From: a virus
Length of the DNA stretch: 27,663 nucleotides
Virus record (IMG/VR): IMGVR_UViG_3300030099_003185
Coordinates: 1 to 27,663 of that record
Direction: 5' to 3' (one strand)
The notes under the pieces are model-generated. The model did no database searches and was not told the origin of the DNA. It saw nothing but the letters and a program-made list of their open reading frames with translations. How positions within the stretch are numbered: the first letter of the stretch is position 1; every line of letters begins with the position of its first letter. This document shows positions 1,306 through 27,640 of the stretch, one piece after another. The position numbers and the translations under genes are program-made.

Positions 1306-1329
1306 TTTTGTGCGTTGCAATTTATATTT
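1306..1329 (+). promoter_or_regulatory. Candidate phage late promoter, copy A
   Basis: TTTTGTGCGTTG at 1306-1317 is followed six bases later by ATAT (1324-1327). It starts directly after the terminase stop codon, 69 bp before the next start codon. The same arrangement recurs at 14474 and 27617, and with a 3-base shift at 4535. No sigma70 -10 box is found at the proper distance, so a dedicated polymerase or activator is more likely. Inference from repetition and position. Confidence 0.5.
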
Positions 1330-1374
1330 AGACAACGCTAGATCACGGTAAGTTATTTTATAAGGAGATCCCAA

Positions 1375-1593
1375 ATGTGTTTAGGTGGCGGTGGCGGTGG
1401 CGGCGCTCCAGCAGTTGATCCAGATGTTGAGATCGAGCGTGAAAACCAAGAAGCTGAAGAGCAAAGAAAAAAAGAAAAGGCAAAGCAGAAACAGCTTGAA
1501 GAAACTGTTGCAAGAAAACGAGGCGGTACAGGAATGCCTTCTCTTCTTACAAGCCAAGCTGGTGGTATTGGTTACTATAACGAGACTCTCTAA
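1375..1593 (+). CDS. Small Gly-rich, coiled-coil protein before portal
   Basis: A 72-residue protein of unknown function. It begins with MCL and a run of seven glycines, followed by a charged, probably helical segment (about residues 20-50, rich in E, K and Q), and ends in a Gly- and Tyr-containing tail. A strong Shine-Dalgarno (AAGGAG at 1362-1367) supports the start. Its stop overlaps the portal start by one base (TAATG), so the two are probably translationally coupled. Small MC-F/L-GG proteins directly upstream of the portal are common in T7-like podoviruses. A head-completion or portal-associated role is plausible but unproven. Confidence 0.85.
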   Translation: MCLGGGGGGGAPAVDPDVEIERENQEAEEQRKKEKAKQKQLEETVARKRGGTGMPSLLTSQAGGIGYYNETL

Positions 1594-3140
1594 TGGATAA
1601 TGTTGCCGAGCGTATGCTCAAAAAATATGAGAAAGCTAAATATAGTCGAGTAAATTTCGAGTCTATATTTGAAGAGTGCTATGAGTTTGCGCTGCCAATG
1701 AGGCAAAGTTTTTATCACGAAGTTGCAGGACAACGACGTGATGATAAGATCTTTGATGAAACTGCGGTTGTTGGGGTGCAAGAGTTTGCTTCTAGATTGC
1801 AATCTGGCTTAGTGCCAAACTTTGCTAGATGGGCAGACTTTATTGCAGGAAGTGAAGTACCGAAAGAGCAGCAAGATGAAGTAAACAATTCACTTGATGA
1901 GATTACAGATTATGTATTTGAAGTTATACAAAGCTCAAACTTTGGGCAAGAAGTACATGAAAGCTTCATGGATCTGGCTGTCGGCACAGGCGTCCTTCTT
2001 GTGGAAGAAGGTGATGCCATCAATCCTGTTCGCTTCAATGCTATTCCCCTTCCAAGTGTCTACTTGGATACTGGACCAGATGATAGCATTGACCACGTTT
2101 ATAGAGAAAGGACTCTTAAAAGCATCGAAATACCTGTGGCATATCCAAAGGGTATTATTGGAGAGAAGACGCTAAAGCATATTGAAAGAGAGCCAGAAAA
2201 AGAAATTAAGATTCTTGAGCTTGTTTGTAGAAACTATCAAGAGTTGAATGAACAAAGATTTGATTACTATGTAATTAATATTCCAGATAAAGAGATAATT
2301 TATTATGAGTTGTTTGAGGGTACAGGCTCAAACCCATTTGTATGTTTTCGCTGGTCTAAAGCCTCTGGTGAAATTTATGGCAGAGGTCCATTAGTCAATG
2401 CACTCAGTGCAATCAAAACTACTAACCTGACAATAGAGTTGGTGCTTGAAAATGCACAGATGGCTATATCTGGCGTATATCAAATGGATGATGACGGCAT
2501 CATTAATACAGATACAATCAACCTAGTGCCTGGCACTATCATTCCAAAAGCAATGGGATCTGCTGGTTTGCAGCCAATCAAGAATGCTGGAAACTTTGAT
2601 GTAGCAAATCTTGTGCTTGGAGATATGCGTAATAATATTAAACGCGCTCTTTACAATGACATGCTTGGAGATCCAAACAAAACACCAGCATCAGCAACAG
2701 AGGTTGCAGAACGTATGGCTGATCTTTCAAGACGGATTGGATCTTCTTTTGGTAGATTGCAAGCTGAAATGGTTCAGCCGATATTGCAGCGTGTTGTCTA
2801 TATATTAAAGAAACAAGGCAAGATTGAAATGCCATCTATCAATGGCAGAGAAGTTAAGGTAAGGTCCGTATCACCATTAGCACAAGCACAAGCAAATCAA
2901 GATATCAGTGCAGTATCAAGATATCTTCAACTGGTTGGGGGAACCTTTGGACCAGAGATATTAAATCTTCTTATCAATTCAGAGGACGTTGCTCTCTATC
3001 TTGCTAAGAAGTTTGGTGTTCCAGATACATTAGTACGAGACAGCGTTGAGCGTGAACAACTGCTACAAGCAGCACAACAGTTTGCACAAGCACAACAACA
3101 AGGTCGAGTACCAGATGCAGAAACACTTAGGACTGGATAA
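1593..3140 (+). CDS. Portal (head-tail connector) protein
   Basis: A 515-residue protein matching the T7 gp8 head-tail connector family in length and character. The portal forms the dodecameric ring at one capsid vertex through which terminase pumps DNA and to which the tail attaches. It begins with a helical segment (MDNVAERMLKKYEKAK), has the YGRGPLVNALSAIKTTN and PASATEVAERM segments typical of this family near residues 260-380, and ends in a Gln/Ala-rich tail. It sits between terminase and scaffold, the standard podovirus order. No strong ribosome site precedes it, and translation probably depends on coupling with the preceding gene. Confidence 0.95.
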   Translation: MDNVAERMLKKYEKAKYSRVNFESIFEECYEFALPMRQSFYHEVAGQRRDDKIFDETAVVGVQEFASRLQSGLVPNFARWADFIAGSEVPKEQQDEVNNSLDEITDYVFEVIQSSNFGQEVHESFMDLAVGTGVLLVEEGDAINPVRFNAIPLPSVYLDTGPDDSIDHVYRERTLKSIEIPVAYPKGIIGEKTLKHIEREPEKEIKILELVCRNYQELNEQRFDYYVINIPDKEIIYYELFEGTGSNPFVCFRWSKASGEIYGRGPLVNALSAIKTTNLTIELVLENAQMAISGVYQMDDDGIINTDTINLVPGTIIPKAMGSAGLQPIKNAGNFDVANLVLGDMRNNIKRALYNDMLGDPNKTPASATEVAERMADLSRRIGSSFGRLQAEMVQPILQRVVYILKKQGKIEMPSINGREVKVRSVSPLAQAQANQDISAVSRYLQLVGGTFGPEILNLLINSEDVALYLAKKFGVPDTLVRDSVEREQLLQAAQQFAQAQQQGRVPDAETLRTG

Positions 3141-3372
3141 TTTTGTTCGCAGCAAAGCGGATGATGAAAGGATATCAAAAGATATCCAAGCACTCTTCAA
3201 AACACCAAATGGCAAACAAGTCTTGCAGTATTTGCGTTCAATAACTATTGAATCAGTACAAGGGCCAAATGCCTCAGACGCAGAATTGCGTCATTTAGAA
3301 GGTCAACGATATCTTGTTGGCCTTATCACTCGTCGTATTAACCACGCAGAAAAGGTGTCAAAAAATGAATGA
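3115..3372 (+). CDS. Bbp19-like small virion-associated protein
   Basis: An 85-residue protein starting at an ATG 26 bp inside the end of the portal gene. An earlier in-frame ATG at 3046 would give an implausible Asn/His-rich leader and lies deep in the portal frame. The core reads FVRSKADDERISKDIQALF, then a PNGKQVLQYL segment, which resembles the Bbp19-type domain of Bordetella phage BPP-1 and relatives, where a small protein of this kind is encoded near portal and scaffold. Its function is not established. It overlaps the scaffold gene by 8 bp. The family assignment is from memory of the pattern and is moderately sure. Confidence 0.75.
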   Translation: MQKHLGLDNFVRSKADDERISKDIQALFKTPNGKQVLQYLRSITIESVQGPNASDAELRHLEGQRYLVGLITRRINHAEKVSKNE

Positions 3373-4075
3373 AGTAACAGATAATGTGGAAGTTGCAACT
3401 GAAGCAACAGAAGCACCTGTGATCGAGCGTCCTGAATGGCTTCCTGAAAAGTTTGAAACCCCAGAAGCATTAGCTTCTTCTTATGGAGAGTTAGAAACTA
3501 AATTAGGGCAAGACAAAGAAAACATTCGTAATGAAATAATGCAAGAGTTTGAGAATGAAGCTCTAGCTAATAGACCAGAAAATGTAGGCGACTACAAAAT
3601 ACCAGAAGGTATAGATGAGTCTTTAGCTGTAGATAATAAGTTATTTCAATGGTGGGCAAATCATGCATTTGAAAATGGTTACAGCCAAGAAGAGTTTGAA
3701 GATGGCATATCACAATATGCTGAGTTCTTTAATTCAACACAGCCAGATTTGAAATCGGAGATGGTTGCTCTTGGTGAAAATGCACAAGTAAGAATTGAAT
3801 CTGTAAATCAATGGGCTAATAGTTTCTTTCCAGAAGAATTACATGATGCATTTTTAATGATGGGTCAAACAGCAGTTGGTGTTAAAGCTCTTGAATATAT
3901 GCAATCTCAAGTAAAACAATCTTCATTGAACAATGCTTCTCAGCCAGCACAAACCATTACCATAGAAGATTTGCAATCAATGCAAAGAGATCCACGATAT
4001 CACGATCCAGTAAGAAGGGATGCGGCGTTTGTTAAAAAAGTCGATGAAGGATTTGCTACACTTTTCCCATCCTGA
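3365..4075 (+). CDS. Capsid assembly scaffolding protein
   Basis: A 236-residue acidic protein of the T7 gp9 scaffold type, which guides capsid shell assembly and leaves before maturation. The start at 3365 (MNEVTDN) has AAAGGTG upstream; a longer frame from 3314 would read through the preceding gene. The N-terminal region has the characteristic ERPEWLPEKFETPEALASSY segment. The middle is Glu- and Gln-rich and predicted helical, and the C-terminus (DPVRRDAAFVKKVDEGFATL) is basic, as expected for a capsid-binding tail. It lies directly after the portal cluster, the usual place. The call rests on motif and position. Confidence 0.92.
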   Translation: MNEVTDNVEVATEATEAPVIERPEWLPEKFETPEALASSYGELETKLGQDKENIRNEIMQEFENEALANRPENVGDYKIPEGIDESLAVDNKLFQWWANHAFENGYSQEEFEDGISQYAEFFNSTQPDLKSEMVALGENAQVRIESVNQWANSFFPEELHDAFLMMGQTAVGVKALEYMQSQVKQSSLNNASQPAQTITIEDLQSMQRDPRYHDPVRRDAAFVKKVDEGFATLFPS

Positions 4076-4577
4076 TGTTTTGTATGATAAAGATGATGTA
4101 AAGATTATAAGGTCTACATTAGACCATGCATCATATCTTCAACATCATTTGCGACAGACAGATGTTCGAGAGTGTATGATTCATGGCTCTACTCCTTGGA
4201 GAGCTTTGCACACTCCTTTAACAGTTAAGAATGCTGAAACATGGACAGGAATCTATCAAGAGGTTCCTGTCTGTATGTTTGGCACTGTGCCATTGGTTGA
4301 AGACAATGACATGAGAACAGCTTTGATATGGATGCTTGGCACTGATACTCTCAATCAAAAGTGGAGAAAATTTTTGCGTTTATCCAGACCTGTATCTGAG
4401 TATCTAATTGAAGGATATGATCTTGTTGAGAATGTTGTTCCTATAGATCATACCAGAACTATTCAGTGGCTTTCATGGCTAGGATTTATATTTGGAGATA
4501 CGCCAACCATGATAAATGGTTTTGAATGTGTGCGTTTTGTGCGTTGCGCTTTTCCTATAAAAGTGAGATTGCAATGA
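4044..4577 (+). CDS. T7 gp13-like protein (GNAT-like fold, DUF2833 type)
   Basis: A 177-residue protein resembling T7 gene 13 protein, a GNAT-like protein affecting virion assembly. Supporting segments are TWTGIYQEVPVCMFGTVP, TALIWMLGTDTLNQKWRKF and TIQWLSWLGF. The ATG at 4044 is preferred over 4020, whose ribosome site is only one base away from the codon; neither has an ideal Shine-Dalgarno, and both overlap the scaffold gene end. In T7 this gene follows the tail tubular genes; here it lies between scaffold and capsid. Its last codons (VRFVRCAFPIK) also carry the late-promoter-like motif at 4535, so protein sequence and regulatory DNA may be jointly constrained. Confidence 0.85.
   Translation: MKDLLHFSHPDVLYDKDDVKIIRSTLDHASYLQHHLRQTDVRECMIHGSTPWRALHTPLTVKNAETWTGIYQEVPVCMFGTVPLVEDNDMRTALIWMLGTDTLNQKWRKFLRLSRPVSEYLIEGYDLVENVVPIDHTRTIQWLSWLGFIFGDTPTMINGFECVRFVRCAFPIKVRLQ
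4535..4560 (+). promoter_or_regulatory. Candidate phage late promoter, copy B
   Basis: TTTTGTGCGTTGC at 4535-4547 is identical over 13 bases to the copy at 1306. A TATA follows at 4556-4559, three bases further on than in the other copies. It lies in the last codons of the gp13-like gene, about 140 bp upstream of the capsid start, the position of the strong phi10 promoter in T7. A coding explanation for the match is possible, but the placement is suggestive. Confidence 0.45.
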
Positions 4578-4676
4578 CACGGCCTGTTTTTAACTGACAG
4601 CCCCATATGGGATAACTGGATGATGAGCGAAACGGACAACCGCGCGAAACTGTAACTTTTGTAAGAGGACTGAAAA

Positions 4677-5492
4677 ATGGCGAATAGTATTGATACCGCC
4701 TTCATTAAGCAGTTCGAGTCCGAAGTTCACATGGCATATCAGCGCATGGGGTCTAAACTCCGTGGTACTGTTCGTACTGCTGGCAATGTGGCAGGAAGCG
4801 TTGTTCGTTTCCAAAAGATCGGAACTGGATCTGCCTCAACTAAATCTCGCAATGGTTCCATTACTCCTATGGAGCTGACCCACACAACTGTCGAAGCAAC
4901 AATGGCTGACCACTATGCGGCTGAGTTTATTGATAAGCTAGATGAGTTGAAAACAAATATTGATGAACGTCAGGCTGTGGCAACATCTGCTGCTGCTGCT
5001 CTTGGTCGTAAGACTGACGAGATTCTTTATACAGCAATGGATGCTGGTGCTAATAGTACACAGATTCATGATACAAGTTCTGCTTTAGAAAAAGCTGATC
5101 TGCTGTCTTTGTTTGAAACCTTTGGTTCAGCAAACATTCCAGAGGACGGAAACCGTTATTTGGCAATGCATCCTAAGGGATATGCTGACCTTTTCCTTAT
5201 CAATGAGTTTGCATCGAGCGACTTTGTTGGTGAGCAAAATCTGCCGTTTGCAGGTGGCATGACAATGAAAGAGTTTCTTGGATTCAAGATTTTTTCAACT
5301 GCTGCTATAACCGCAGGAAAGAATATGGCTTACCATTCATCTGCTGTTGGCCTTGGCGTAAATGCTGATGTTTCCACAGAGGTAAATTATATTCCTGAGA
5401 AGGCTTCACACCTTGCAACTTCAATGATGTCTATGGGCGCAGTAGTTATCGATGATAACGGTATCTACGAAGTCTTAGACAACAACTCATAA
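4677..5492 (+). CDS. Major capsid protein
   Basis: A 271-residue protein following the scaffold and gp13-like genes, taken as the shell-forming coat protein with the HK97 fold. It is shorter than T7 gp10 (about 345 residues) and closer to the compact capsid proteins of BPP-1-like phages. Visible segments include IDTAFIKQFESEVHMAYQR at the N-terminus, MADHYAAEFIDKLDELKTN for the long helix, and ILYTAMDAGAN. The start has AGAGGA about seven bases upstream. About 100 bp without a gene precede it, and a perfect 10-bp hairpin lies after the next gene. The assignment is by order, length and segment style. Confidence 0.92.
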   Translation: MANSIDTAFIKQFESEVHMAYQRMGSKLRGTVRTAGNVAGSVVRFQKIGTGSASTKSRNGSITPMELTHTTVEATMADHYAAEFIDKLDELKTNIDERQAVATSAAAALGRKTDEILYTAMDAGANSTQIHDTSSALEKADLLSLFETFGSANIPEDGNRYLAMHPKGYADLFLINEFASSDFVGEQNLPFAGGMTMKEFLGFKIFSTAAITAGKNMAYHSSAVGLGVNADVSTEVNYIPEKASHLATSMMSMGAVVIDDNGIYEVLDNNS

Positions 5493-5507
5493 GAGGAGGA
5501 TTAGGAA

Positions 5508-11215: not shown

Positions 11216-11226
11216 GAAAATGTTTG

Positions 11227-14200
11227 ATGGATGTTGGGCGTAGAGATTTTTTTATTGCTGCAAGTGCGGGATTTAAAGATGAAGTAGATCCAAGCTGGTA
11301 TGAGGCTTGGAAAGCAAATGTTGCATATCACAACATGCCAATTATTGAATCTGTTCAAGAGCATCAATTATTTGGAAAGGTAGAACGTGATCCAAACTAT
11401 GATGTTGTTTCTGATATAGGTGAGCAATATCTGCCTTATTACGAAGATCTGATAAGAGCAAAGAATCCAGAACATCTACAGTTTTTGAAAGAACGTGTTG
11501 ATCGATCTCTTGATCGCCGTATGACAATGCAACGTGGTCACTGGTCAGCTGCTTTAGTTGGTGGAATTACAGATCCATTATTTCTTACAACCTTTGTGCC
11601 AGGTCTTAATGCTATTGGGCTTGGCAAGACTGTGCTTAGTGCAACTGGCAGAGCATCAGCACTTGGCTTTGGTTATGGCATTGCATCAGAAGCAAGACGT
11701 GCTCCGTTTGCTGTTGCTGATGAGAAATACGAAAGTGTGCAGAACATTGCATCATCTACAGCGATTAGTGGTTTTTTTGGCGGTGCATTTAAAGGTGTGG
11801 GTTGGTTATCCCCCTTTATTGAATCGAGTGCGAAGAAAGTGGGTAGATTGGCACGTGGAGAGAAGATTAAGCATATATGGGGAGAAAATGCCACAAACCT
11901 TGATGATGGCTATGTAGGGCAGTCTGGTGGCGATTATGATGCTGTTGTAGGCAACCCTCTTGGTAGCCCATCTCAACGTGCATTGTCTGACCCTTCTTTG
12001 CCGCAAGATGTAAAGAAAGCTTTTGTTGATCTGGCTTACAATTCTTCTGTGCCAATTCAAGGAAATCGCGGTGGTTTAGCAACGCAGTCTGTAGCTCAAA
12101 GAGCTTTGCCTTATGAAGGTTTATATCGCAATGTTGAAATGCAGATGCGCGATCTTCATGCACAGCATATTGGTGTAAATAAAAAAGCAAAATCTATTGC
12201 TGGTGTTTACAGCCCATTTACGGCTGAGTTTGATGATTTTTTTGCTGATACTGTAAAGCGTTACATTCTTATGGATTCACCAGATCCACGTTTAGCAAGA
12301 CAAGCACTTGATGGCATTTCAGACGCGCAGCGTCAGGGTGCAGATTTGTTGCGTAAGACATTTATGGAAGTTGGAGAAGATGCAACCTTTACTGGTTTGT
12401 TTCCAAACAATGAGCAAATTAAAAAGAAGTTAGTAACGCTACAAGAACGCATAGATAAAAAAGCTGCAATTATTGCAGACATTGATTCTAAAACAAGGCC
12501 AGATGGCACTCTCTCAAAAAAAGCATTTGATAAACGTGCTGATTTGGAATTTGAGCAAGCCTCTATAAGAGGTCGCATAACAATGCTTGAGGCTGCACTT
12601 AATGCACCACCTCGCAAGAATTTTAAGTTTGGTATTTATTATAATAAAGAGTTGCTGCAGGGTGATGATGCTGCAAGAGAGGCTCTTACACAAAAGTTTG
12701 AACAACATTATCTGCGCGAACGATATAAAGAAAACTCTGTAACTTATGAAGATATTAAACAGGGGAATGTAAGTGCCAGAGAAGATGCAGAACGAACAGT
12801 ATCACGCATATTAGAAGAAGATGCCGACGACTTTGAAAGTGTAATGCCTGATGGTTCTATTGCTGGTGGAGCAAAACATTTACGTCATCGCAAAACTAAC
12901 ATTCCCGAACATGAGATTGTAGACTTTATTCATCTCTCTCCTGATGCATTGTTTTCTTATATGTCTCGTATGGGAAAACAAATTGCTTTTGCGGAAAAAT
13001 TTGCTGGCAGAAATGTTGATGAAGTTTTAGACGATATAACATCTTCAATGAAACAAGCAGGGTTGTCTGATAAAAAAATTGCTGAAACAAGGGCTGCATT
13101 TATAGGTGATTTTAGTCGTGTGATGGGTACATATAGACGTAATCCTGATCGGCTTGACAATCAGATGGCAAAAGTAATTAAGGGTGTTACTGGTTGGACA
13201 TATCTGCCTTTGGCGGGCGCATCTGCAATCACAGATGTTGGATCTATAGCAATGGCTCATGGCTTCAAGGATACGTTCAAGGCTGGGGCTGCTGAAATAC
13301 TTCAACGTGGCTATGCTGGCAATGTAATTAAAGAAGCGCAAATAGCTGGTGAGTTATTAGACATTACACGCAATGTTGCTGGGCGTGAAATAGTATCCGA
13401 CAGCATGAAAAGAATAGAGCCAAAAGGCGCAGAGAAATTTGTATCCATAGGCAACAAGGTTTTTTACACAGCTAATCTACTCGCACCTATTACCTTTGCT
13501 GGTAAAACGCTCGATCAGATAGCAGTAAACAACAAATTCATTCAGCTATCCCGAAAGATGGCGTCAGGCAAAATCAGTAAATATGATGCCGAATATTTAC
13601 GCCGATACGGCATTGATGAAGATATGGCTGAGTACATCTCAACTATGCCTGTTAGCAAACATGATTCAATGAATTTGTTTTTCGCCAACACAGATCAATG
13701 GCCCAGTGATACACCAGCAGCCAGAGCAAAAAGGCGCACTTATCAATCAGCTACAGCAGCACACGCAAACAATACGGTGATCATGGGGCAGACATTTGAT
13801 AAGCCCCTGATGGTAGATGGCATTGTGTTTATGCGTGACAATGCGTTCTTCCAGATGATGCGAAAAAAATTCCCTGAATTATACAAGATAGATAAGCAAG
13901 CATCCTTTGGATCGACTCGTCTTGTGCGTATCGAAAGCGGTGCAATGACATTGCCGTTTACGTTTATGAACTTTGCATTTGGTGCAAACAATAAAATCAT
14001 AGGAGCAATACGAGATCCTAATAGGCGTCATAGATTGCAAGGTGCAATCGCTTTGATTGGTCTCTCATATCTTTCGTTGGCGTGGAAGAAGCCTGATTAC
14101 TGGTTTGAAAAACGTGATAGCCCAGAGGTTTTGGCGCGAGTAATTGATCATTCTGGTTTGCTTGGCATCTATAGTGATCTTGGGTACATGGGCCTTTCTA

Positions 14201-14475
14201 TGGCGGTTAATACTGGCCTTTTGCCAGAAGAAGGTGTTGCTGGTATCAAGCCTAAATACATTAGTCCTGATGAAGAAGACAGGGCAATGGATGCACTTAC
14301 TGAACCGTTTGGTGCGCCTGCTGGATTAGCTTTGTCATATGGCAGAGCGGCAAGCGATTTCCTTAATGGCAGATATAATGAGGGTTCGGCTGAGTTGTTT
14401 TACAACGCTCCGTTTATTGGCTTGCCTTTTATAAGAGATGACGCAAGGGATTTATTAATTGGTGGGCGTAACTAA
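11227..14475 (+). CDS. Large internal virion / ejection protein (T7 gp16-like position)
   Basis: A 1082-residue protein, the largest in the window, placed like T7 gp16 after gp14- and gp15-like genes. The ATG at 11227 has AGGAAA upstream and is favoured over a TTG one codon earlier. A hydrophobic segment (about residues 100-160, GGITDPLFLTTFVPGLNAIG and following) precedes a coiled-coil region (LVTLQERIDKKAAIIADID), and further hydrophobic stretches occur near the C-terminus (LQGAIALIGLSYLSLAW, LGIYSDLGYMGLSM). I see no soluble lytic transglycosylase motif at the N-terminus, unlike T7 gp16. It is probably ejected into the cell envelope. Confidence 0.85.
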   Translation: MDVGRRDFFIAASAGFKDEVDPSWYEAWKANVAYHNMPIIESVQEHQLFGKVERDPNYDVVSDIGEQYLPYYEDLIRAKNPEHLQFLKERVDRSLDRRMTMQRGHWSAALVGGITDPLFLTTFVPGLNAIGLGKTVLSATGRASALGFGYGIASEARRAPFAVADEKYESVQNIASSTAISGFFGGAFKGVGWLSPFIESSAKKVGRLARGEKIKHIWGENATNLDDGYVGQSGGDYDAVVGNPLGSPSQRALSDPSLPQDVKKAFVDLAYNSSVPIQGNRGGLATQSVAQRALPYEGLYRNVEMQMRDLHAQHIGVNKKAKSIAGVYSPFTAEFDDFFADTVKRYILMDSPDPRLARQALDGISDAQRQGADLLRKTFMEVGEDATFTGLFPNNEQIKKKLVTLQERIDKKAAIIADIDSKTRPDGTLSKKAFDKRADLEFEQASIRGRITMLEAALNAPPRKNFKFGIYYNKELLQGDDAAREALTQKFEQHYLRERYKENSVTYEDIKQGNVSAREDAERTVSRILEEDADDFESVMPDGSIAGGAKHLRHRKTNIPEHEIVDFIHLSPDALFSYMSRMGKQIAFAEKFAGRNVDEVLDDITSSMKQAGLSDKKIAETRAAFIGDFSRVMGTYRRNPDRLDNQMAKVIKGVTGWTYLPLAGASAITDVGSIAMAHGFKDTFKAGAAEILQRGYAGNVIKEAQIAGELLDITRNVAGREIVSDSMKRIEPKGAEKFVSIGNKVFYTANLLAPITFAGKTLDQIAVNNKFIQLSRKMASGKISKYDAEYLRRYGIDEDMAEYISTMPVSKHDSMNLFFANTDQWPSDTPAARAKRRTYQSATAAHANNTVIMGQTFDKPLMVDGIVFMRDNAFFQMMRKKFPELYKIDKQASFGSTRLVRIESGAMTLPFTFMNFAFGANNKIIGAIRDPNRRHRLQGAIALIGLSYLSLAWKKPDYWFEKRDSPEVLARVIDHSGLLGIYSDLGYMGLSMAVNTGLLPEEGVAGIKPKYISPDEEDRAMDALTEPFGAPAGLALSYGRAASDFLNGRYNEGSAELFYNAPFIGLPFIRDDARDLLIGGRN

Positions 14476-14497
14476 TTGTGCGTGGAAGCATATATCA
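14474..14497 (+). promoter_or_regulatory. Candidate phage late promoter, copy D
   Basis: TTGTGCGT (14476-14483) followed by ATAT at 14492-14495 has exactly the register of the copies at 1306 and 27617, although the block diverges at one base within TTG (GTGG instead of GTTG) and at its 5' end. It begins at the stop of the large ejection protein gene, about 40 bp before the fiber start, the place of phi17 in T7. Confidence 0.42.
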
Positions 14498-14517: not shown

Positions 14518-17394
14518 ATGACAATTAGTTTGAGTAACAATGCAGCGCGAGTTTCGTACTCTGTAAGCCAAGGGGCTACACAGAGTAGTTTTACCGTGTC
14601 TTTTGAGTTTTTTGATGATGATGATCTTTCCCTATATGTAGATGGTACTCTTAAAACTCTGACAACTCATTACACAGTATCAGGTGGAGATGGCTCTACT
14701 GGTACAATAACAATGACCAGTGGCAACAATGTTACTGGCATTAGTGGTGGCAGCACTGTTGTTATTACGCGCGATATTGATCTTGATCGTGTGACTGATT
14801 TTCCATCATCAGGTCCATTTGCTGTAGCAACATTAAATACTGAGCTTGATAGATTTACTGCTATTGCCGCTGATCAAAAAGATGAGGTCGATAGAGCATT
14901 ACGTCTTCAAGATTTTGATTCTGCTGTATCTATGGAGCTTCCGCTCAAAGCAGCACGACTAGGTACAGTGCTTGGTTTCAATGCATCAACAGGTGCGCCA
15001 GAAGCAGGACCAACTATAGCTAATGTTAATAGTCTTTCTGCTATTACAACAAATATAAACACGGTTGCTGGTATTCAAAGTAATGTAACTACGGTTGCTG
15101 GCATTTCTTCGAATGTTCAGACTGTTGCTGGCATTTCTGGAAACGTCACGACTGTAGCCGGCATCACAAGCAACATCTCATCTGTTGTCAGTAATGCTAG
15201 CAATATAAATACGGTGGCTGGAGCAATCACAAATGTAAACAATGTTGGCGGTTCTATATCTAATGTGAATACTGTCGCCGGGGCTATCTCCAACGTAAAT
15301 GCTCTAGCGGCATCTGCTGTGATTGCTGACATGGCTCTGCTTGGTAACGCTGATGTTATAGCCGACATGGCCCTGCTCGCCACCACTGATGTCATAGCTG
15401 ATATGAATACCTTGGCAACTAGCGATATTGTATCTGACCTAAACACATTGGCCACCAGTGATATTGTGTCTGATATCAATACACTGGCAACCAGCGATAT
15501 CGTCAGCGACTTAAACACATTGGCGACCAGTGACATTGTCAGCGATATAAATACGCTTGCCACGTCAGATATTGTCACTGACCTAAATCTACTGGCTACC
15601 AGCGATTTCGTTAGCGACCTAAACACATTAGCAACAAGCGCAAATGTAACAGCGGTCAATAACGTCAGCGGCTCAATAGCCAATGTAAACACAGTTGCGT
15701 CAAACCTTAGCGGCGTTAACAGCTTTGCCGAGCGTTATCGTGTATTAAGCTCAGACCCAGGCTCAGACAATGATGAGGGGGATTTGGTCTACAATACCAC
15801 AGACAACAACCTCAAATTTTTCAACGGAAGCTCATTTGTTGCTGTCGGTGGTGCTATCTCAAACATAGTTGAGGACACCACCCCTCAGCTTGGCGCTGAC
15901 CTGGACCTAAACAGCAACAATATTACTGGCACTGGCAACATTTCAACAACTGGTACTGCAACAATCACCACAAGTGGAAACACAGCACAGCTTACACTCA
16001 CATCCACTGACGCAGACGCCACTGGTGGACCCGGATTTGATTTATTAAGAAACAGCAGCAGTCCTGCGAACAGTGATAATATTGGATTCATAAGATTTCG
16101 TGGGAAAAATAGTAACGGTGATGAACACACCTACGGTTTTATACAGTCAAAAGCACTTACTGTGACTGACGGCAGTGAAGATGGCGGTTTTGAATTGCTT
16201 ATGAATAAAGGCGGTTCAAATCGTAGCAGAATGGAGGTTCTTGCTGGCGAAACAGTCTTTAATGAAGACAGCGTAGACGTAGACTTCCGTGTTGAGTCGA
16301 ACGGCAACACTCACGCGATTTTTGTTGATGCAGGAAATGATGTAGTCGGTATTGGCACATCCACACCAAACAGCTTTAACGCTAACGCAAAAAATCTTGT
16401 GGTGGGCACTGGCTCTGGCTCGAACGGCATTACTATTTTTGCAGGAAACTCATCAGACAGTGCGATATTCTTTGCCGATAATGGCAGCACCGCAACGGGC
16501 CAGATAAATTATAAACACTCAGACAATGCCTTTACCTTTCATATAAGTGGCGGCAGTGAGGGTATGCGCCTTGACAGCAGCGGTAATTTTCTTGTTGGAA
16601 AGACTGCCAGTGGCTCATTCACCGAATCTAGTGTTGAGTTGAACAACACAGGCTACGTTATGTCTGCGCGTAATGACGGAGCTAACATATTTCTGTCAAG
16701 ACAAGGATCTAGCGCACCAGAAGGTGCTATGATTTCCCTAAGCAAGGTCAATACAGAAATAGGTCGTATTGGTGTAAAATCATCAAGGATGTATATGGGG
16801 TCTAGTTCCACTGGCCTAGCCTTTGAAGGCTCTCAAGCTGATTCCATCTATCCAGTCTCAGCAAGTGGCGACGGGTCACTTAGAGACAACGCTATTGATT
16901 TAGGCTTTGCATCTTCACGTTTCGATGACATTTTTGCCACCAACAGCACAATCAACACATCTGACGAAAACGAAAAACAGAACATTACTAGCCTGACAAG
17001 CGCAGAGATAACTGCTGCAAAAGCCATAAGTAAGCTGTTCAAAACTTACAAATGGAAAGATAAAGTTACAGCTAAGGGTGATGCGGCTCGTACTCACACG
17101 GGTGTGGTTGCCCAAGAGGTACAAAAGGCTATGACTGACGCTGGGCTAGATGCAACAAAGTATGCCTTCTGGTGTTCGAATACTTGGTGGGAAGTTGAAG
17201 AGACAATCACTGATGATGATGGAAAAAAGCATACAGGAATGATGTCTTATCAGACAGAAGAAGAAGCCCCAGAAGACGCAACCAAACGCACACGGTTGGG
17301 TGTTCGATACCCAGAGTTGTTGGCGTTTATTGGCGCGGCTACAGAGCAAAGGCTAGCAGATATTGAAAGCCGCCTTGCGGCATTGGAGGAGTAA
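14518..17394 (+). CDS. Tail fiber with T7-type N-terminus and S74 autochaperone
   Basis: A 958-residue receptor-binding fiber. Residues 1-150 resemble the T7 gp17 virion-attachment domain (SYSVSQGATQSSFTVSFEFF, later SSGPFAVATLNTELDR). Residues about 180-265 hold loose repeats around TVAGI, and residues 268-375 hold nine 12-residue repeats. A Gly/Ser/Asn-rich shaft and tip follow. The C-terminus is an S74 intramolecular chaperone: Ser815 and Lys820 in TSDENEK form the expected S-D-x3-K cleavage site, then HTGVVAQEVQ and LGVRYPELLAFIGAATEQRL. Autocleavage before Ser815 would release a 144-residue chaperone after trimer folding. A good ribosome site (TAGGAG) precedes the ATG. Confidence 0.94.
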   Translation: MTISLSNNAARVSYSVSQGATQSSFTVSFEFFDDDDLSLYVDGTLKTLTTHYTVSGGDGSTGTITMTSGNNVTGISGGSTVVITRDIDLDRVTDFPSSGPFAVATLNTELDRFTAIAADQKDEVDRALRLQDFDSAVSMELPLKAARLGTVLGFNASTGAPEAGPTIANVNSLSAITTNINTVAGIQSNVTTVAGISSNVQTVAGISGNVTTVAGITSNISSVVSNASNINTVAGAITNVNNVGGSISNVNTVAGAISNVNALAASAVIADMALLGNADVIADMALLATTDVIADMNTLATSDIVSDLNTLATSDIVSDINTLATSDIVSDLNTLATSDIVSDINTLATSDIVTDLNLLATSDFVSDLNTLATSANVTAVNNVSGSIANVNTVASNLSGVNSFAERYRVLSSDPGSDNDEGDLVYNTTDNNLKFFNGSSFVAVGGAISNIVEDTTPQLGADLDLNSNNITGTGNISTTGTATITTSGNTAQLTLTSTDADATGGPGFDLLRNSSSPANSDNIGFIRFRGKNSNGDEHTYGFIQSKALTVTDGSEDGGFELLMNKGGSNRSRMEVLAGETVFNEDSVDVDFRVESNGNTHAIFVDAGNDVVGIGTSTPNSFNANAKNLVVGTGSGSNGITIFAGNSSDSAIFFADNGSTATGQINYKHSDNAFTFHISGGSEGMRLDSSGNFLVGKTASGSFTESSVELNNTGYVMSARNDGANIFLSRQGSSAPEGAMISLSKVNTEIGRIGVKSSRMYMGSSSTGLAFEGSQADSIYPVSASGDGSLRDNAIDLGFASSRFDDIFATNSTINTSDENEKQNITSLTSAEITAAKAISKLFKTYKWKDKVTAKGDAARTHTGVVAQEVQKAMTDAGLDATKYAFWCSNTWWEVEETITDDDGKKHTGMMSYQTEEEAPEDATKRTRLGVRYPELLAFIGAATEQRLADIESRLAALEE
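15319..15642 (+). repeat. Nine 36-bp (12-residue) tandem repeats in the fiber
   Basis: Nine in-frame units of 12 codons follow the pattern (V/I)-(I/V)-x-D-(M/L/I)-N-T-L-A-T-S-D; the middle five are nearly identical as protein (IVSDLNTLATSD type). The codons differ between copies (for example different Ser, Thr and Leu codons), so the protein repeat is conserved better than the DNA, which suggests selection on structure rather than very recent duplication. It probably forms a rod-like trimeric shaft segment. Confidence 0.9.
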
Positions 17395-22856: not shown

Positions 22857-23280
22857 GGTTTAGCTCCAATTTTTTCTGTTCTAGTCTGATGGCATCAATA
22901 GATTGAATCAACTCTGTTGAAGGAGTCCAATCATCTGGAATCTGACACCTCTTCTTTCTTTGTTTATTGGTTATTGATAGGTTACTGTCGCTCTCTGCGA
23001 CACCACTGTCGCTGTGTGCGACAGCTATGTCGCTCAGTGCGACACGATAGATGTTGCTTTTGAAAGCGTTCTGCGTTCGATGTATATACCCAGCTTGTTC
23101 AAGATCATTCAGCTTTCTTGCAACAGATGCTCGATGCATACCAGTGCGTTCAGCAAGAGTGATAGTGCTAGGCCAACACTCACCTTTGTCATTGGCGTAA
23201 TCACACAATGTAACAAGAAGCCATTTTGCCAATGGATCTTGTATAGGCAAACGCATAGCATCAGCCATTAGTGTGAACAT
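22642..23280 (-). CDS. Lambda-O-like replication initiator (winged helix)
   Basis: A 212-residue protein. Residues about 17-77 form a winged-helix domain (KWLLVTLCDYANDKGECWPS, then LAERTGMHRASVARKLNDL and a wing to SNIYRV). A short repeated linker (VALSDIA, VAHSDSG, VAESDSN) follows, encoded by three iterons. The C-terminal part has PDDWTPS and FRDHHKSKGSTFIDVDAAYR plus TW, the aromatic pattern common in phage replication proteins. The ATG at 23280 is selected for GGAG six bases upstream. It should bind the origin in its own gene and recruit the host helicase with the downstream protein. Confidence 0.85.
   Translation of the reverse strand: MFTLMADAMRLPIQDPLAKWLLVTLCDYANDKGECWPSTITLAERTGMHRASVARKLNDLEQAGYIHRTQNAFKSNIYRVALSDIAVAHSDSGVAESDSNLSITNKQRKKRCQIPDDWTPSTELIQSIDAIRLEQKKLELNHDHEAAIFRDHHKSKGSTFIDVDAAYRTWCRRSFGNRQTTSGSSASQGRRSSTSNTQSDRFSAYLSAINES
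22986..23044. repeat. Three 17-bp iterons: probable replication origin
   Basis: TGTCGC-N5-GCGACA occurs three times at 22986-23002, 23007-23023 and 23028-23044, with an exact 21-bp period (two helical turns). Each is a perfect 6+6 dyad; only the 5-bp centres and 4-bp linkers vary. An AT-rich stretch (about 22950-22985) lies on the 3' side in gene direction, the same order as iterons and AT-rich region in the lambda ori inside gene O. They are the likely binding sites of the initiator in whose gene they lie. Confidence 0.85.
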
Positions 23281-23591
23281 ATAGCTCTCCACTCTCTTTG
23301 TTTGCGGTTACTTCTTCCTTTGCGCTTTTCACCTGTAAGTTCTATCAACCCTTTTTTTTCAAGTTCATTGAACCTACTACTTACACTTGAATTTGATGTG
23401 ATGTTTGGATGAGTGATTTGCACATACTTCCACACCTCATCATGAATACATGGTCCAATAGATTTGATTGCATCTAATACAATCTGTTGCATCTTTGTAG
23501 GATCAATCGACTCAGCAGCTTCATAGCTTGTCGATGGATCATTACGGCGAACCAGTTTATATGCTGGAATTTCAAATAGATCTTCGTTCAT
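23268..23591 (-). CDS. Winged-helix DNA-binding protein
   Basis: A 107-residue protein with an N-terminal KLVRRNDPSTSYEAAESID motif, a form ('DP-TS-EAA') common in small phage proteins, and a winged-helix region (VLDAIKSIGPCIHDEVWKYV, then SSVSSRFNELEKKGLIEL) ending in a basic wing (GEKRKGRSNRKQREW). AAGGGAG precedes the ATG. It lies just upstream of the initiator and overlaps it by 13 bp. It may regulate early transcription or assist replication; an operator-like dyad sits 14 bp before its start. Confidence 0.82.
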   Translation of the reverse strand: MNEDLFEIPAYKLVRRNDPSTSYEAAESIDPTKMQQIVLDAIKSIGPCIHDEVWKYVQITHPNITSNSSVSSRFNELEKKGLIELTGEKRKGRSNRKQREWRAICSH

Positions 23592-23604
23592 GTTGCGCTC
23601 CCTT

Positions 23605-23620: not shown

Positions 23621-23642
23621 AGTTTAAGACATAGGTTGACGT

Positions 23643-23668: not shown

Positions 23669-23682
23669 TTTGGGTGGATTGA

Positions 23683-24018: not shown

Positions 24019-24152
24019 CGTTCTTCCTCATAACAAGAGACACAAACAAGAACGCCATGAGCAAGTATTACATACCAAGGCGTCGTAGTTTTACATGCCT
24101 GGCATTTTTGTGCTTTACCTACTTTGTCTTGTTTTGATTTCGACTTTCGCAT
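23859..24152 (-). CDS. Zinc-ribbon-like protein overlapping the nuclease gene
   Basis: A 97-residue frame whose first 44 residues lie outside the nuclease gene and contain KCQACKTTTPWYVILAHG and VCVSCYEEERWHH, a Cys-x2-Cys ... Cys-x2-Cys metal site with 17 residues between pairs. The remaining 53 residues run in a different frame over the start of the nuclease gene and are basic and low in pattern. The start has only a weak ribosome site and overlaps the previous gene by 38 bp. The Cys spacing argues for a real gene; the C-terminal part may be an overprinted extension. Confidence 0.6.
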   Translation of the reverse strand: MRKSKSKQDKVGKAQKCQACKTTTPWYVILAHGVLVCVSCYEEERWHHLSATKEAITKDGGSSGYKTMGRKRNVNRSVDRWVESSQVTSKSPQKPKF

Positions 24153-24369
24153 CTAATGCATCCAGCCAACAAATGAACAAGAAGTTCGATGGCACTCGTT
24201 TGAATTGTTCCCACTTATGTACAAGAGAACTGGCACATCCTATTCTGTCAGCCAATACCTCTTGGCTTATACCTTGCTCTTGCCGTAGAGATATTAAACC
24301 TGTGACAACATCAGACCAGTTGTCAGAGATTGGTTGCGGTTTTTTGTAATGCGTAAACTTTGATCGCAT
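24115..24369 (-). CDS. XRE/Cro-type helix-turn-helix regulator
   Basis: An 84-residue protein with a Cro/CI-like helix-turn-helix: LISLRQEQGISQEVLADRIG then CASSLVHKWEQFKRVPSNFL. The ATG at 24369 has AAAGG six bases upstream and is preferred over a TTG two codons earlier. It overlaps the preceding HTH gene by 47 bp and the following zinc-ribbon gene by 38 bp. No oligomerisation or cleavage domain is present, so it is more like Cro than a full repressor. It is a candidate for binding the TGCA-N4-TGCA dyads, but this is not shown. Confidence 0.82.
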   Translation of the reverse strand: MRSKFTHYKKPQPISDNWSDVVTGLISLRQEQGISQEVLADRIGCASSLVHKWEQFKRVPSNFLFICWLDALDAKVEIKTRQSR

Positions 24370-24550: not shown

Positions 24551-24560
24551 TTAGACAAGG

Positions 24561-24812: not shown

Positions 24813-24937
24813 TAGTTTTGCTCCTCATCCCCAAGCCACTCGTCTACGCACTCGTCACAAATGTAACCCAAATCGTCACACTCGTCACAGCCATCGTTGC
24901 GTCCTATGATTACTGGCCTATTGGTTCGGTCAAGCAT
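24812..24937 (-). CDS. 41-residue zinc-ribbon microprotein
   Basis: A very short gene encoding a protein with two CDEC motifs (DGCDECDDLGYICDECVDEW), i.e. Cys-x2-Cys-x8-Cys-x2-Cys, a compact metal-binding site. It is acidic, with a basic N-terminus (MLDRTNRP). The ATG overlaps the stop of the preceding tiny gene by 8 bp and its stop overlaps the next start (TAATG), so it fits the coupled gene chain. The Cys pattern strongly favours a real product. Function unknown. Confidence 0.7.
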   Translation of the reverse strand: MLDRTNRPVIIGRNDGCDECDDLGYICDECVDEWLGDEEQN

Positions 24938-25019
24938 CGGCTGTTTTCTTTTGTTGTTTTTCTATAGTTTTAAGTACGGCCATTAGCTGTGCGTAATTAC
25001 TTACTGTTGGTTTACTCAC
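24930..25019 (-). CDS. 29-residue possible microprotein
   Basis: A GTG-started frame with GGAG seven bases upstream that overlaps the preceding stop by 3 bp (GTGA) and the following ATG by 8 bp. The product is one basic helix (NYAQLMAVLKTIEKQQKKTA). It fills an otherwise empty gap in a densely coupled operon. It could alternatively be only a translational bridge between the flanking genes. Confidence 0.4.
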   Translation of the reverse strand: MSKPTVSNYAQLMAVLKTIEKQQKKTADA

Positions 25020-25255
25020 CATGCATCTCCAATCACTTTTAAGTTTTGTCCATCGAACAAATAGAGTTTTGAAGGAATCATTTTCTTTGTCGTCTTACAT
25101 CTTTTAGCTGTGACATACTCATCCCAAGCTGGGTATTTATCAGGCCATATTGCGGCCTGACGTCTAATTTTTTGTGCAATCTGTTTGAGTGTTTTGCCAC
25201 AGGACCATACTGTAATGTCTCCACCTGTTTCATTTAGTTTGCAGTAATAAATCAT
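25016..25255 (-). CDS. Hypothetical early protein
   Basis: A 79-residue basic protein of unknown function. The ATG at 25255 overlaps the ArdC-like gene stop by one base (TAATG); an upstream in-frame start at 25291 is rejected because it lies inside that gene. It contains YYCKLNETGGDITVWSCGKT, Lys/Arg-rich helices, and ends with SKLYLFDGQNLKVIGDAW, which looks like a beta-hairpin. No motif recognised. Confidence 0.72.
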   Translation of the reverse strand: MIYYCKLNETGGDITVWSCGKTLKQIAQKIRRQAAIWPDKYPAWDEYVTAKRCKTTKKMIPSKLYLFDGQNLKVIGDAW

Positions 25256-26085
25256 TATGCTGCTTCCTTCTTTGCTGTTTGTGCTTCCCAAATATAGTTG
25301 ACTGCTTTCGATGCTGCTGATGCTGCACTGAATATAAACTTGCTGTCATTGTCGAGAGCCTTGAGCCAATGCTCGATGTAGCTTGCATGGTCCTCTCGAA
25401 CCTTTGCCTCAAGGCCAAGCTGTGCCATCAAAAACGCCGATCCCATCTCAGCAACTAACTCTTCGATGGCATAGTCGGTTTTGTTGCGACTGAAGTTTCG
25501 TTCGAGGCGAAACTTGTGTCCTGTCCAGTGAACAAGTTCATGGAATAATGTGCTGTAGTAATCCAGTGCAGATCTGAAGTCTTCGAACTTGGGCATGTTG
25601 ATGTAATCATGTGTTGGATTGAAGTATGCTTTTGATGCACCATTACGAACATCTGCTTTTGTTCCTGATACTAGATCATCCGCTACTGTGTCTTTTGGAT
25701 CTGTGTTGATGTAATCTTGCACAAGAGGCGGTTGGTATTTGTCTGGCAGTCCATCGATCTGGTCTGCATTGAAGACTGTGTACCATTTGTAGCATCTATA
25801 TGTTTCGTCATCTTTTGTTGTGACTGGTGCTGAATAACATACTGATGTGCCGCGCTCTCCTTTGCGAACTTGACCACCAATTTCTTTGGCTTGTCTGTAT
25901 GTCATCCATGTGGGTGCAGTTCTTCCCTGCATCCAAAGCAGAATAACATTGATGCCTTGATACATTTCACCATTGAAGCGTAGAGGCATTGGCATGCCTC
26001 CACCATTCCAAGGCTTGATCCAAGGGGGAGTGCCAGCTTCAAGCTGCGCTTTGATCTGCCGTGTTACATCATCAAACTTGCTCAT
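25255..26085 (-). CDS. ArdC-like antirestriction / ssDNA-binding metalloprotease-type protein
   Basis: A 276-residue protein with the two-part layout of ArdC: an N-terminal ssDNA-binding domain (VTRQIKAQLEAGTPPWIKPW, RFNGEMYQGINVILLW, EIGGQVRKGERGTSV, a highly characteristic string) and a C-terminal zincin-like domain with the active-site HELVH at residues 182-186 and a downstream Glu in EELVAEMGSAFL. Plasmid ArdC proteins protect incoming DNA from restriction; the phage version may do likewise or act in early DNA handling. GAAGGAG precedes the ATG, which overlaps the previous stop (ATGA). Confidence 0.92.
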   Translation of the reverse strand: MSKFDDVTRQIKAQLEAGTPPWIKPWNGGGMPMPLRFNGEMYQGINVILLWMQGRTAPTWMTYRQAKEIGGQVRKGERGTSVCYSAPVTTKDDETYRCYKWYTVFNADQIDGLPDKYQPPLVQDYINTDPKDTVADDLVSGTKADVRNGASKAYFNPTHDYINMPKFEDFRSALDYYSTLFHELVHWTGHKFRLERNFSRNKTDYAIEELVAEMGSAFLMAQLGLEAKVREDHASYIEHWLKALDNDSKFIFSAASAASKAVNYIWEAQTAKKEAA

Positions 26086-26309
26086 ATGTCTGCTCCTTCT
26101 TTGCCACTGATCATTGCTTGATAGTCTTCAAACGCTTGAACCTGTCTATCGATGAATTTGTTTTCATCGAAAGTTGGATCAGCGTCTTTGATTGCATGTG
26201 CGATTGAAACAACTTCACTTGGATGTGTAATTGTTGGCGTCAACATTTTGTGAATTAGTTCCAGAGTTGATCCTGTTACCGTCACTGTCTTCTTTTGAAA
26301 TACGCTCAC
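26082..26309 (-). CDS. Hypothetical early protein upstream of ardC-like gene
   Basis: A 75-residue protein from a GTG start with GGAG seven bases upstream. It starts 95 bp inside the preceding zinc-finger gene in another frame and ends in an ATGA overlap with the ArdC-like gene. The sequence is helical with LELIHKMLTPTITHPSEVVS and an acidic C-terminus (DENKFIDRQVQAFEDYQAM). A shorter version could start at an internal ATG. No family recognised. Confidence 0.65.
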   Translation of the reverse strand: MSVFQKKTVTVTGSTLELIHKMLTPTITHPSEVVSIAHAIKDADPTFDENKFIDRQVQAFEDYQAMISGKEGADI

Positions 26310-26430
26310 GTTCTTGCTCCATTAGACTGTTTGTTGGTGAACACACACATAGAGTCCAATAGACATCACCACTTCCATCGGACTCTCGAATCCATCCATC
26401 ATGCTTATCTTTACAATGATGGCATGTCAT
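26215..26430 (-). CDS. Small zinc-finger-like early protein
   Basis: A 71-residue protein starting at the ATG at 26430 with GAGG six bases upstream (an ATG at 26442 lacks a site). It begins TCHHCKDKHDGWIRESDG and continues DVYWTLCVCSP, giving Cys-x2-Cys and a later Cys-x-Cys that could hold one zinc ion. The rest is a charged helix (MEQERERISKEDSDGN) that ends in an Asn-rich tail, encoded where the next gene already begins in another frame. It overlaps the first gene of the operon by 20 bp. Confidence 0.65.
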   Translation of the reverse strand: MTCHHCKDKHDGWIRESDGSGDVYWTLCVCSPTNSLMEQERERISKEDSDGNRINSGTNSQNVDANNYTSK

Positions 26431-26584
26431 TTTGTGCCTCATATAGATCTTCTAATGCATGAATGTTTTTGATTTCGTCATCGTAGATTTTCTGGGAATG
26501 ACAATCAGCGCAGTACATATCGTCTGCTTCTGAATCATAAACTGTTGCGTTACGTTGATCGCAAATTGCACATTTACTAAACAT
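26411..26584 (-). CDS. 57-residue zinc-ribbon protein, first gene of early operon
   Basis: A short gene 32 bp downstream of the early promoter's -10 box. The product has CAIC (residues 5-8) and CADC (residues 25-28), a Cys-x2-Cys-x16-Cys-x2-Cys ribbon, followed by an acidic helix (KIYDDEIKNIHALEDLYEA). AGGA eight bases before the ATG supports the start. As the first product of the leftward early operon it would be made early. Function unknown; metal-ribbon proteins in this position may bind host transcription or nucleic acid. Confidence 0.75.
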   Translation of the reverse strand: MFSKCAICDQRNATVYDSEADDMYCADCHSQKIYDDEIKNIHALEDLYEAQNDMPSL

Positions 26585-26615
26585 GATAGATCCTATTGAC
26601 TGTTGAATTGATTTG

Positions 26616-26644
26616 ATTGTACTGCATAGTTGCAGTGATTACAA
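26616..26644 (-). promoter_or_regulatory. Early leftward sigma70-like promoter
   Basis: On the minus strand TTGTAA (26644-26639) and TACAAT (26621-26616) are separated by exactly 17 bp, giving 4/6 and 5/6 matches to the sigma70 consensus. The expected start is about 25 bp before the first early gene (26584). All genes from there to 19828 run in this direction with short overlaps, so it probably drives much of the early operon. Confidence 0.62.
26621..26636. promoter_or_regulatory. Operator-like perfect dyad O1 in the early promoter
   Basis: ACTGCA-TAGT-TGCAGT is a perfect 6+6 inverted repeat with a 4-bp centre that occupies the spacer between the -35 and -10 boxes of the early promoter. A protein bound here would exclude RNA polymerase. 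Related TGCA-N4-TGCA sites are at 24535 (degenerate), 23605 and 22243. Confidence 0.6.
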
Positions 26645-26715
26645 TAATAAATGAATTGATTTCGTCAGCGATTTTTGGCGCAAAGATTACATAGCTTGTC
26701 AATCAGGAGGGCTGC

Positions 26716-26761
26716 GGCGCATGCTGCTTGGGCTTCCTGCGTTGCCCAGGCGCATGCGCCT
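26716..26761. repeat. GC-rich nested inverted repeats
   Basis: AGGCGCATGCGCCT (26748-26761) is a perfect 14-bp palindrome. Its GCATGCGCC also pairs with GGCGCATGC at 26716-26724, enclosing a smaller TGGGC/GCCCA stem. The stretch is far richer in G and C than the early operon beside it. It lies between the terminator of the right-end gene and the early promoter, with no convincing gene in 26585-26813. It could be a protein-binding or structured-RNA element. Confidence 0.5.
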
Positions 26762-26773
26762 AATGCCAGACAG

Positions 26774-26804
26774 AAAAAAACCCCAGCGACCGGAGCCGCT
26801 GAGG
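26774..26804 (-). terminator. Intrinsic terminator of the right-end gene
   Basis: Read leftward, CCTCAGCG and CGCTGGGG (26804-26781) form an 8-bp stem with one G-T pair and an 8-base loop, followed by seven T (26780-26774). It begins 10 bp beyond the stop codon of the gene at 26814. This is the clearest intrinsic terminator in the window. Confidence 0.88.
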
Positions 26805-26813
26805 CTTGGGAGT

Positions 26814-27305
26814 CTATTCTGCTGCTTGTTGCATGTACTTGGCAGCGAGTTCCTTTCTGCGTTTTGCACCAATGTCTATCCTTGGTGCGGCTCGTTTCTT
26901 TGAGGTGTATGTAAACTTGTCTTCGGTACACTCCTCGTAAGCTGCCTTCTGATCTACGACGAACGCTTTCAACATCTCGATCTCTTGATCGATATTGTCC
27001 ATGCGTTCATCGATGCGGTCAGAAGCCAGATCTGTGCTGTGCATGCCACCACGCGCTGCACCGTACTTAGCGACTACCACCAAAAGCTGATCGTCTGAGA
27101 TTTGGTCTGCGCCCTCGATCTGGATCTTGTCATCGACCAGTTGATGTATGTCCTTCTCCTTCTGGTCAATCAACCACTCTGCTTGTTCTACAGCTTTGCG
27201 AGCTAGATTTTGAATGAGATATACGCGAGATCTTCCACCGTTGAGATCTTGATTTGGGAAAGAACTGTTGTATCCGCTTGCGAAGTGATTAGATGTGTTG
27301 CTCAT
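26814..27305 (-). CDS. Right-end hypothetical protein, probably strongly translated
   Basis: A 163-residue protein. The ATG at 27305 has a full AAGGAGG five bases upstream; a longer frame to 27524 would translate inverted repeats and is rejected. The N-terminus is polar (MSNTSNHFASGYNSSFPNQD), the middle is helical and acidic (LIDQKEKDIHQLVDDKIQIE, later DERMDNIDQEIEMLKAFVVD) and the end is basic (SKKRAAPRIDIGAKRRKEL). It has its own terminator and lies apart from the early operon in a GC-rich block, like a moron or an immediate-early gene. I do not recognise the family. Confidence 0.8.
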   Translation of the reverse strand: MSNTSNHFASGYNSSFPNQDLNGGRSRVYLIQNLARKAVEQAEWLIDQKEKDIHQLVDDKIQIEGADQISDDQLLVVVAKYGAARGGMHSTDLASDRIDERMDNIDQEIEMLKAFVVDQKAAYEECTEDKFTYTSKKRAAPRIDIGAKRRKELAAKYMQQAAE

Positions 27306-27616
27306 GAGAACCTCCTTGTTGAGCTGTGACGGGACTACCCGCCGATAAGCGAGGGAATGCACCGCGACAGGGCAGGGAGCAACCCGCAACACGGAGTGGA
27401 GCGGGCAGCGGGTTGCAGCGCACACAACAAACAAGCCACTACGCGCCACGCGCGGAGTGACTAGTTGTGCGCGACCCTGCAATGGCGTGGGGCATAAGGA
27501 ATCGCAGGCGGGTAGGGCTGGCATAGTGAAACATGGCGGGGCGATATGACAACCATCTATGAACGGAGCAAGTGGATGCGGCAGGGCTTTTCCAATGAAA
27601 GATCGCCTGTGAGTGC
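27306..27616. other. GC-rich noncoding region with inverted repeats
   Basis: About 310 bp without a credible gene on either strand. GCAACCCGC (27379-27387) pairs with GCGGGTTGC (27408-27416). GCGCACACAAC (27418-27428) pairs with GTTGTGCGC (27464-27472) apart from a 2-base bulge, with CACT/AGTG nested inside. It lies where leftward early and rightward late transcription would diverge if the genome continues to the right, so a control region, structured leader or replication/packaging site is possible. No clear sigma70 promoter for the gene at 27305 was found. Confidence 0.55.
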
Positions 27617-27640
27617 TTTTGTGCGTTGACAGCGATATTC
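27617..27640 (+). promoter_or_regulatory. Candidate phage late promoter, copy C
   Basis: TTTTGTGCGTTG at 27617-27628 is followed by ATAT at 27635-27638, in the same register as the copies at 1306 and 14474. It points rightward out of the window. An overlapping TTGACA (27626-27631) has only a weak -10 candidate 17 bp on. If the genome continues to the terminase region it would be the first late promoter. Confidence 0.45.

Follow-up and report, generated by a model that had tools for sequence, protein, structure and literature searches.

Gene content of the window and the repeated element

The stretch of DNA analysed here (the window) is the whole of IMG/VR record IMGVR_UViG_3300030099_003185, 27,663 bp long; its source is a podovirus-like phage and the record is incomplete. 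The plus strand carries the genes for terL, portal, capsid, tail, internal virion protein, fibre and lysis, and after these late genes the minus strand carries Erf, RecE-like, O-like, RusA-like and anti-restriction genes. The late genes are accompanied by a repeated 12-mer, TTTTGTGCGTTG, whose 10-letter core, TTGTGCGTTG, looks like a previously unreported on-switch for them. No match to the window at the DNA level was found among 50,697 phage records. The nearest isolate, judged by the portal protein (62%), is Pelagibacter phage EXVC031P Hodr, which does not carry the motif. The sites and the late genes next to them are as follows.

1..1305, plus strand: terminase large subunit gene (terL; phrog_10250), 5' end missing, upstream of site C
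1308..1317, plus strand: site C, between terL and portal, TTGTGCGTTG, 2 nt past the terL stop codon; -35-like TTGCAA at 1315-1320 and weak -10-like TAGATC at 1339-1344
1593..3140, plus strand: portal (head-tail adaptor) gene (phrog_332, 2e-91), downstream of site C
4537..4546, plus strand: site D, before the capsid gene, TTGTGCGTTG, within the coding end of the open reading frame (ORF) 4020-4577
4677..5492, plus strand: major capsid gene (phrog_3437, 3e-55), ATG at 4677, downstream of site D
14476..14485, plus strand: site E, before the fibre gene, variant TTGTGCGTGG, directly after the stop codon of ORF 11224-14475
14518..17394, plus strand: tail fibre gene (phrog_7121, 2e-48), downstream of site E
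27619..27628, plus strand: site A, before terS, TTGTGCGTTG, running into TTGACA at 27626-27631 (-35); 18-nt spacer and weak -10 GAGAAA at 27650-27655

Exact copies of the 12-mer start at 1306, 4535 and 27617, all on the plus strand, as is the variant at 14476, and the count of the 12-mer in 100 dinucleotide shuffles of the window was 0. The repeated motif pointed out in a preliminary description of this DNA is therefore real, and the 13-base identity between the copies at 4535 and 1306 was also given correctly. The copy at 4535 is not intergenic, since it lies inside the 3' end of ORF 4020-4577, where it encodes R-F-V-R-C. The last base of the window is also the last of a G7 run, 28 nt past the final TTG of the last 12-mer.

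Conservation of the element in relatives

Five site classes were distinguished according to the genes they adjoin: class A between terS and the divergent early operon, class B between terS and terL, class C between terL and portal, class D ahead of the capsid gene and class E ahead of the fibre gene. Across 155 related loci the core recurs beside the same genes, with divergent flanks. A count in 32 full or near-full genomes, made up of Hodr, the window and 30 IMG/VR relatives, gave 69 exact copies of TTGTGCGTTG on the late strand versus none on the other strand, and every motif-bearing genome has between two and five exact sites, exclusively on the late strand. The sister record G019, which supplies the missing piece of the window, carries sites A, B, C and D, as well as the same variant at site E. 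Thus, the proposal that the motif occupies strategic late-gene positions was borne out: it is conserved, specific for the late strand and placed before the same genes in relatives, an observation on which that proposal had been made to depend.

The exact 10-mer of class C was present in 54 of 63 unique regions downstream of terL with a gap of at least 30 nt, mostly 0-3 nt past the terL stop codon, whereas regions in which the next gene follows at once mostly do not contain it. The place of site E is shared by about 15 full relatives, which read TTGTGCGT[T/G/A]G. An ATAT at a fixed distance from the motif had been described as a component of it. Although ATAT does stand at this register at 1306, 14476 and 27617 of the window, it was found there in 1/18, 0/34, 4/49, 0/42 and 0/3 of the relatives' sites in the five site classes; this near-absence rules it out as part of the element.

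The copy at site D allowed the constraint on DNA to be separated from that on protein. Here, 56 genomes were picked by peptide and not by DNA. Codon homozygosity was 1.00 for F (TTT), 0.93 for V (GTG) and 1.00 for R (CGT), a uniformity that no invariant F, V or R column in the capsid gene reaches. Just outside the 10-mer the sequence is variable, with values of 0.60 for the preceding R codon and 0.58 for the third base of the C codon. In class B, the motif and the A that follows it form a TGA in all 24 sites, and this TGA closes the open frame of the upstream gene in 20 of them. The frozen codons at D, together with the TGA at B, argue that the constraint acts on the nucleic acid and is limited to the 10-mer.

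Promoter architecture around the element

A TATAAT matrix was scored at every distance from the motif (51 registers, with 300 shuffles for each class). In classes A, B and C, independently, the best -10 register was found 18 nt past the hexamer that opens with the last TTG of the motif, and in each of the three classes the score at this spacer was the best of the 51 registers and above all 300 shuffles. Class A reads TTGTGCGTTGACA, with a full -35, after which come NATAAA-like bases and two G-runs. In nearly all relatives with the G-run pair, motif-less ones included, TTGACA is located 23-26 nt before the G-run; it is kept at this distance in G002, G003 and G006, which do not have the TTGTGCG box. 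Since TTGACA is kept without the box, the box is an extra element that starts ahead of the -35 of a sigma70-type promoter and overlaps it, and in classes A-C its predicted position is about -43 to -34.

The earlier statement that these sites do not look like sigma70 promoters was not upheld, as three of the five classes show a recognisable -35 (TTGACA at A) together with a -10 at the 18-nt spacer. The fixed spacing of 16-18 nt between -35 and -10 that is expected of a sigma70-type promoter whose -35 is overlain by an activator box is present at sites A, B and C, and was not found at D and E. A consensus promoter scan gave no match at the sites of the window; poor hexamers are expected of activator-dependent promoters.

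Two further observations concern the surroundings of these sites. Many class C sites (L085, L089, L130 and others) are followed by a palindrome, TGCATNNATGCA, which occupies the spacer that separates the -35-like hexamer from the -10-like one and is possibly a second operator or a hairpin in read-through mRNA. On the minus strand of the window, the start called for ORF 26814-27524 is too early: homology begins at MSNTSNHF, at about 27305, and with this correction a divergent intergenic region of ~310 nt lies ahead of site A.

A small XRE protein as the candidate reader of the element

The preliminary description had proposed that the sites are served either by a dedicated single-subunit RNA polymerase or by a phage activator, encoded outside the window in both cases. 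The activator is the better-supported half of this proposal, but the best candidate lies inside the window:

24115..24369, minus strand: candidate regulator, an 84-aa XRE-type helix-turn-helix protein, in the early operon

A neighbour of this gene encodes a RusA-like resolvase, although not all of its neighbours are assigned. G019 has an XRE protein 97% identical to that of the window. To relate the gene to the motif, we used a tree of terL, capsid and portal proteins, on which the motif was scored as present at two or more copies and the XRE gene by a recognition helix of this type. G001, in which the contig ends where the gene would be, and G005, which is intermediate, were left out. The motif and the XRE gene were concordant in 30 out of 30 genomes, with four parsimony changes each, and none of 50,000 simulations was as concordant as the observed data. 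In an unbiased scan of all ORF families, the XRE gene was one of those whose phyletic distribution best matched that of the motif. When records were fetched by way of early-operon genes, 24 of the 26 held the 10-mer, and the other two are short fragments. A search for the XRE gene in cellular genomes found none.

The AlphaFold model of the protein (predicted local distance difference test score of 89) has an XRE domain. Its best structural matches are controller (C) proteins of restriction-modification systems, C.Esp1396I (Z 10.9) and C.AhdI (Z 10.2); other XRE proteins score close behind, indicating that the match is to the fold. Because G009 carries both TTGTGCATTG and TTGTGCGTTG, the genomes offer no clean test of co-variation between the recognition helix and the site. 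Some relatives (G029:26697, G025:20381 (oriented), G035:4168 and G039:28407) have one more late-strand 10-mer within the early region, where it is antisense to the XRE gene and lies downstream of it.

Other candidates for the regulator were rejected. The first of the divergent early genes (minus strand, 26814 to about 27305) has few relatives and belongs to no family of DNA-binding proteins. The 289-aa gene that follows site B is missing from the motif-bearing G009 and G016, and the winged-helix-like gene 23271-23591 has relatives in the motif-less G006 and G011 as well. An elongation element of the RfaH/ops kind does not fit class A, in which the motif stands upstream of a conserved -35.

Proposed mechanism and its alternatives

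On the basis of these comparisons, we propose that TTGTGCGTTG is the binding site of the XRE regulator encoded at 24115-24369. The predicted site overlaps the -35 of weak sigma70-type promoters, which would be read by the host RNA polymerase toward the late genes. The regulator would be made early, sit on the site beside region 4 of sigma, and act from several points to turn on the modules for packaging, portal, capsid and fibre. We regard activation of the late modules by the XRE protein through this site as moderately probable. Activation seems likelier than repression in view of the weak hexamers, the confinement of the sites to the late strand, and the lack of an integrase match in most near-complete motif-bearing genomes.

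There are precedents for such an arrangement. C proteins activate promoters from sites adjoining or overlapping the -35, and C.Esp1396I and C.AhdI are, like the candidate regulator, small XRE helix-turn-helix proteins. They bind partly symmetric sites as dimers and control restriction-modification genes, whereas here the site is an asymmetric 10-bp sequence repeated before phage structural modules, and the protein, which may or may not act as a dimer, is a putative activator. T4 MotA, Mu C and lambda CII, activators of middle or late phage transcription, also work at or over the -35. They share with the present system a short conserved box that overlaps or replaces the -35 of weak host-polymerase promoters and is found at several phage promoters, and differ from it in that here the fold is XRE, the box is different, and the -35 is retained at site A.

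Several observations weigh against activation by the XRE protein. The -10 sequences of the window's own copies are weak (GAGAAA and TAGATC). No -10 at the 18-nt spacer was found in class D by the matrix scan or in class E by eye, and at site E the fibre start codon is only ~40 nt away; the missing -10 at D and E is the main gap in this explanation, and the copies at these two places may or may not be promoters. In addition, the label for the presence of the XRE gene was set after the data had been seen, and with a plain cut-off an XRE gene was present in 19 of 20 motif-bearing versus 3 of 11 motif-less genomes. Distant XRE proteins whose recognition helices differ are present in G008, G011 and Hodr, all motif-less. 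The four parsimony changes represent few independent events, and many XRE proteins are repressors.

The main rival explanation, especially for D and E, is that the XRE protein represses from stoperator-like sites. It would block initiation at A and form a roadblock to elongation in the short gaps at B, C, D and E, keeping late genes off early in infection or in lysogeny. The sites indeed resemble the stoperators of cluster A mycobacteriophages (L5, TipsytheTRex) in being asymmetric, oriented with transcription, and located in a promoter and in short intergenic spaces at stop codons (PMC9283540). The absence of a recognisable -10 at D and E fits this explanation, some motif-bearing relatives (G007, G022 and G030) have an integrase, and there is a precedent in the controller protein C.Kpn2I, which is reported to be an elongation roadblock (PMC6237814). 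However, stoperators number more than 20 per genome, versus two to five exact sites here, none of which lies on the early strand, where a lysogeny repressor would need them. The stoperator repressor has 183 residues in two domains (helix-turn-helix and Stoperator), whereas the 84-aa protein has a single helix-turn-helix and does not contain the second DNA-binding domain of L5-type repressors. Eight motif-bearing records of at least 31 kb gave no integrase match, and repression would leave the fixed -10 spacing in B and C unexplained. Overall, we consider this explanation unlikely.

A combination of the two modes is less likely still. One XRE protein could use the same asymmetric 10-bp sequence as an activator at the -35 of A, B and C and for stoperator-like control of elongation at D and E, coupled at the capsid gene to the leader RNA described below. 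If this were true, the amounts of head and tail proteins relative to one another would be fixed in this way in a lineage of marine phages.

An equally low probability is assigned to the sites being regulatory promoter elements read by another phage protein or by a host regulator, with the XRE gene co-occurring for some other reason. Co-occurrence is not equal to binding, and other genes are also enriched in motif-bearing genomes. However, the XRE gene follows the motif through four changes on the tree and its product has a DNA-binding fold, whereas the second candidate, the winged-helix-like protein, also has relatives in motif-less genomes.

The two remaining explanations fared much worse. 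Like the class III late promoters of T7, the sites are repeated, short, placed before late modules and uniformly oriented, which had suggested a T7-type RNA polymerase encoded outside the window. A search with PF00940 gave no match in the window, itself an incomplete record, or in 11 other records (near-complete relatives and isolates), although the T7 control was detected at 1e-110. The T7-type polymerase was therefore rejected as the reader, and with the -35/-10 architecture and sigma70-like hexamers also arguing against it, this explanation is very improbable. That the 12-mer is a functionless coincidence has a negligible probability: the capsid copy is indeed coding and would merely encode the conserved R-F-V-R-C, but no shuffle reproduced the copies, the non-coding sites C and E are conserved, and both the 69-to-0 strand bias and the synonymous freezing limited to the motif refute it.

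A literature search found no described late-promoter motif in this lineage. Phages of this group are known almost solely from metagenomes, and late-gene activation in marine podoviruses without their own RNA polymerase is largely unstudied. With a named site, a candidate protein and natural presence/absence pairs of genomes (G016/G006 and G009/G011), activation of late genes by the XRE protein is directly testable. The site also offers a marker for orienting and annotating contigs from this group.

Capsid leader RNA, G-runs and other features

Two further conserved features lie downstream of sites D and A, respectively.

4578..4644, plus strand: structured RNA core of 67 nt in the capsid leader, with covarying helices, between the stop codon of ORF 4020-4577 and the capsid ATG at 4677
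27657..27663, plus strand: first run of a conserved G-run pair, between site A and terS; the record ends here, and G019 continues GGGGGGGAACAAGGGGGGG

Covariation in the leader RNA was assessed by pair counting on a named structure (alignment A2, comprising L001:5488-5553, 37 further loci and the window). It contained 79 double-change cells, whereas shuffles gave 29 and slid controls 25 at most. The RNA has two similar GCC/GGAYAAC internal loops and matches no family in Rfam. It is kept in motif-less genomes and even in relatives whose capsid identity is 75%; it is independent of the motif, yet transcripts starting at site D would carry it in their leader.

In most relatives, a pair of G6-G8 runs separated by 3-8 nt, commonly GGGGGGGAACACAAGGGGGGG, is located directly upstream of terS (e.g. 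L161:16392-16411). This pair could be a packaging (cos/pac) site or a G-quadruplex.

Integrase genes are present in G007, G022 and G030, and in Vibrio phage 1.257.O, in a lineage that is otherwise integrase-less, which suggests that temperate members are scattered within it. Finally, a 21-nt sequence with an inverted TGTCGC..GCGACA core is repeated three times in tandem at 22984-23046, inside the O-like replication gene of the window; by analogy with lambda O, these repeats are probably the iterons of a replication origin.

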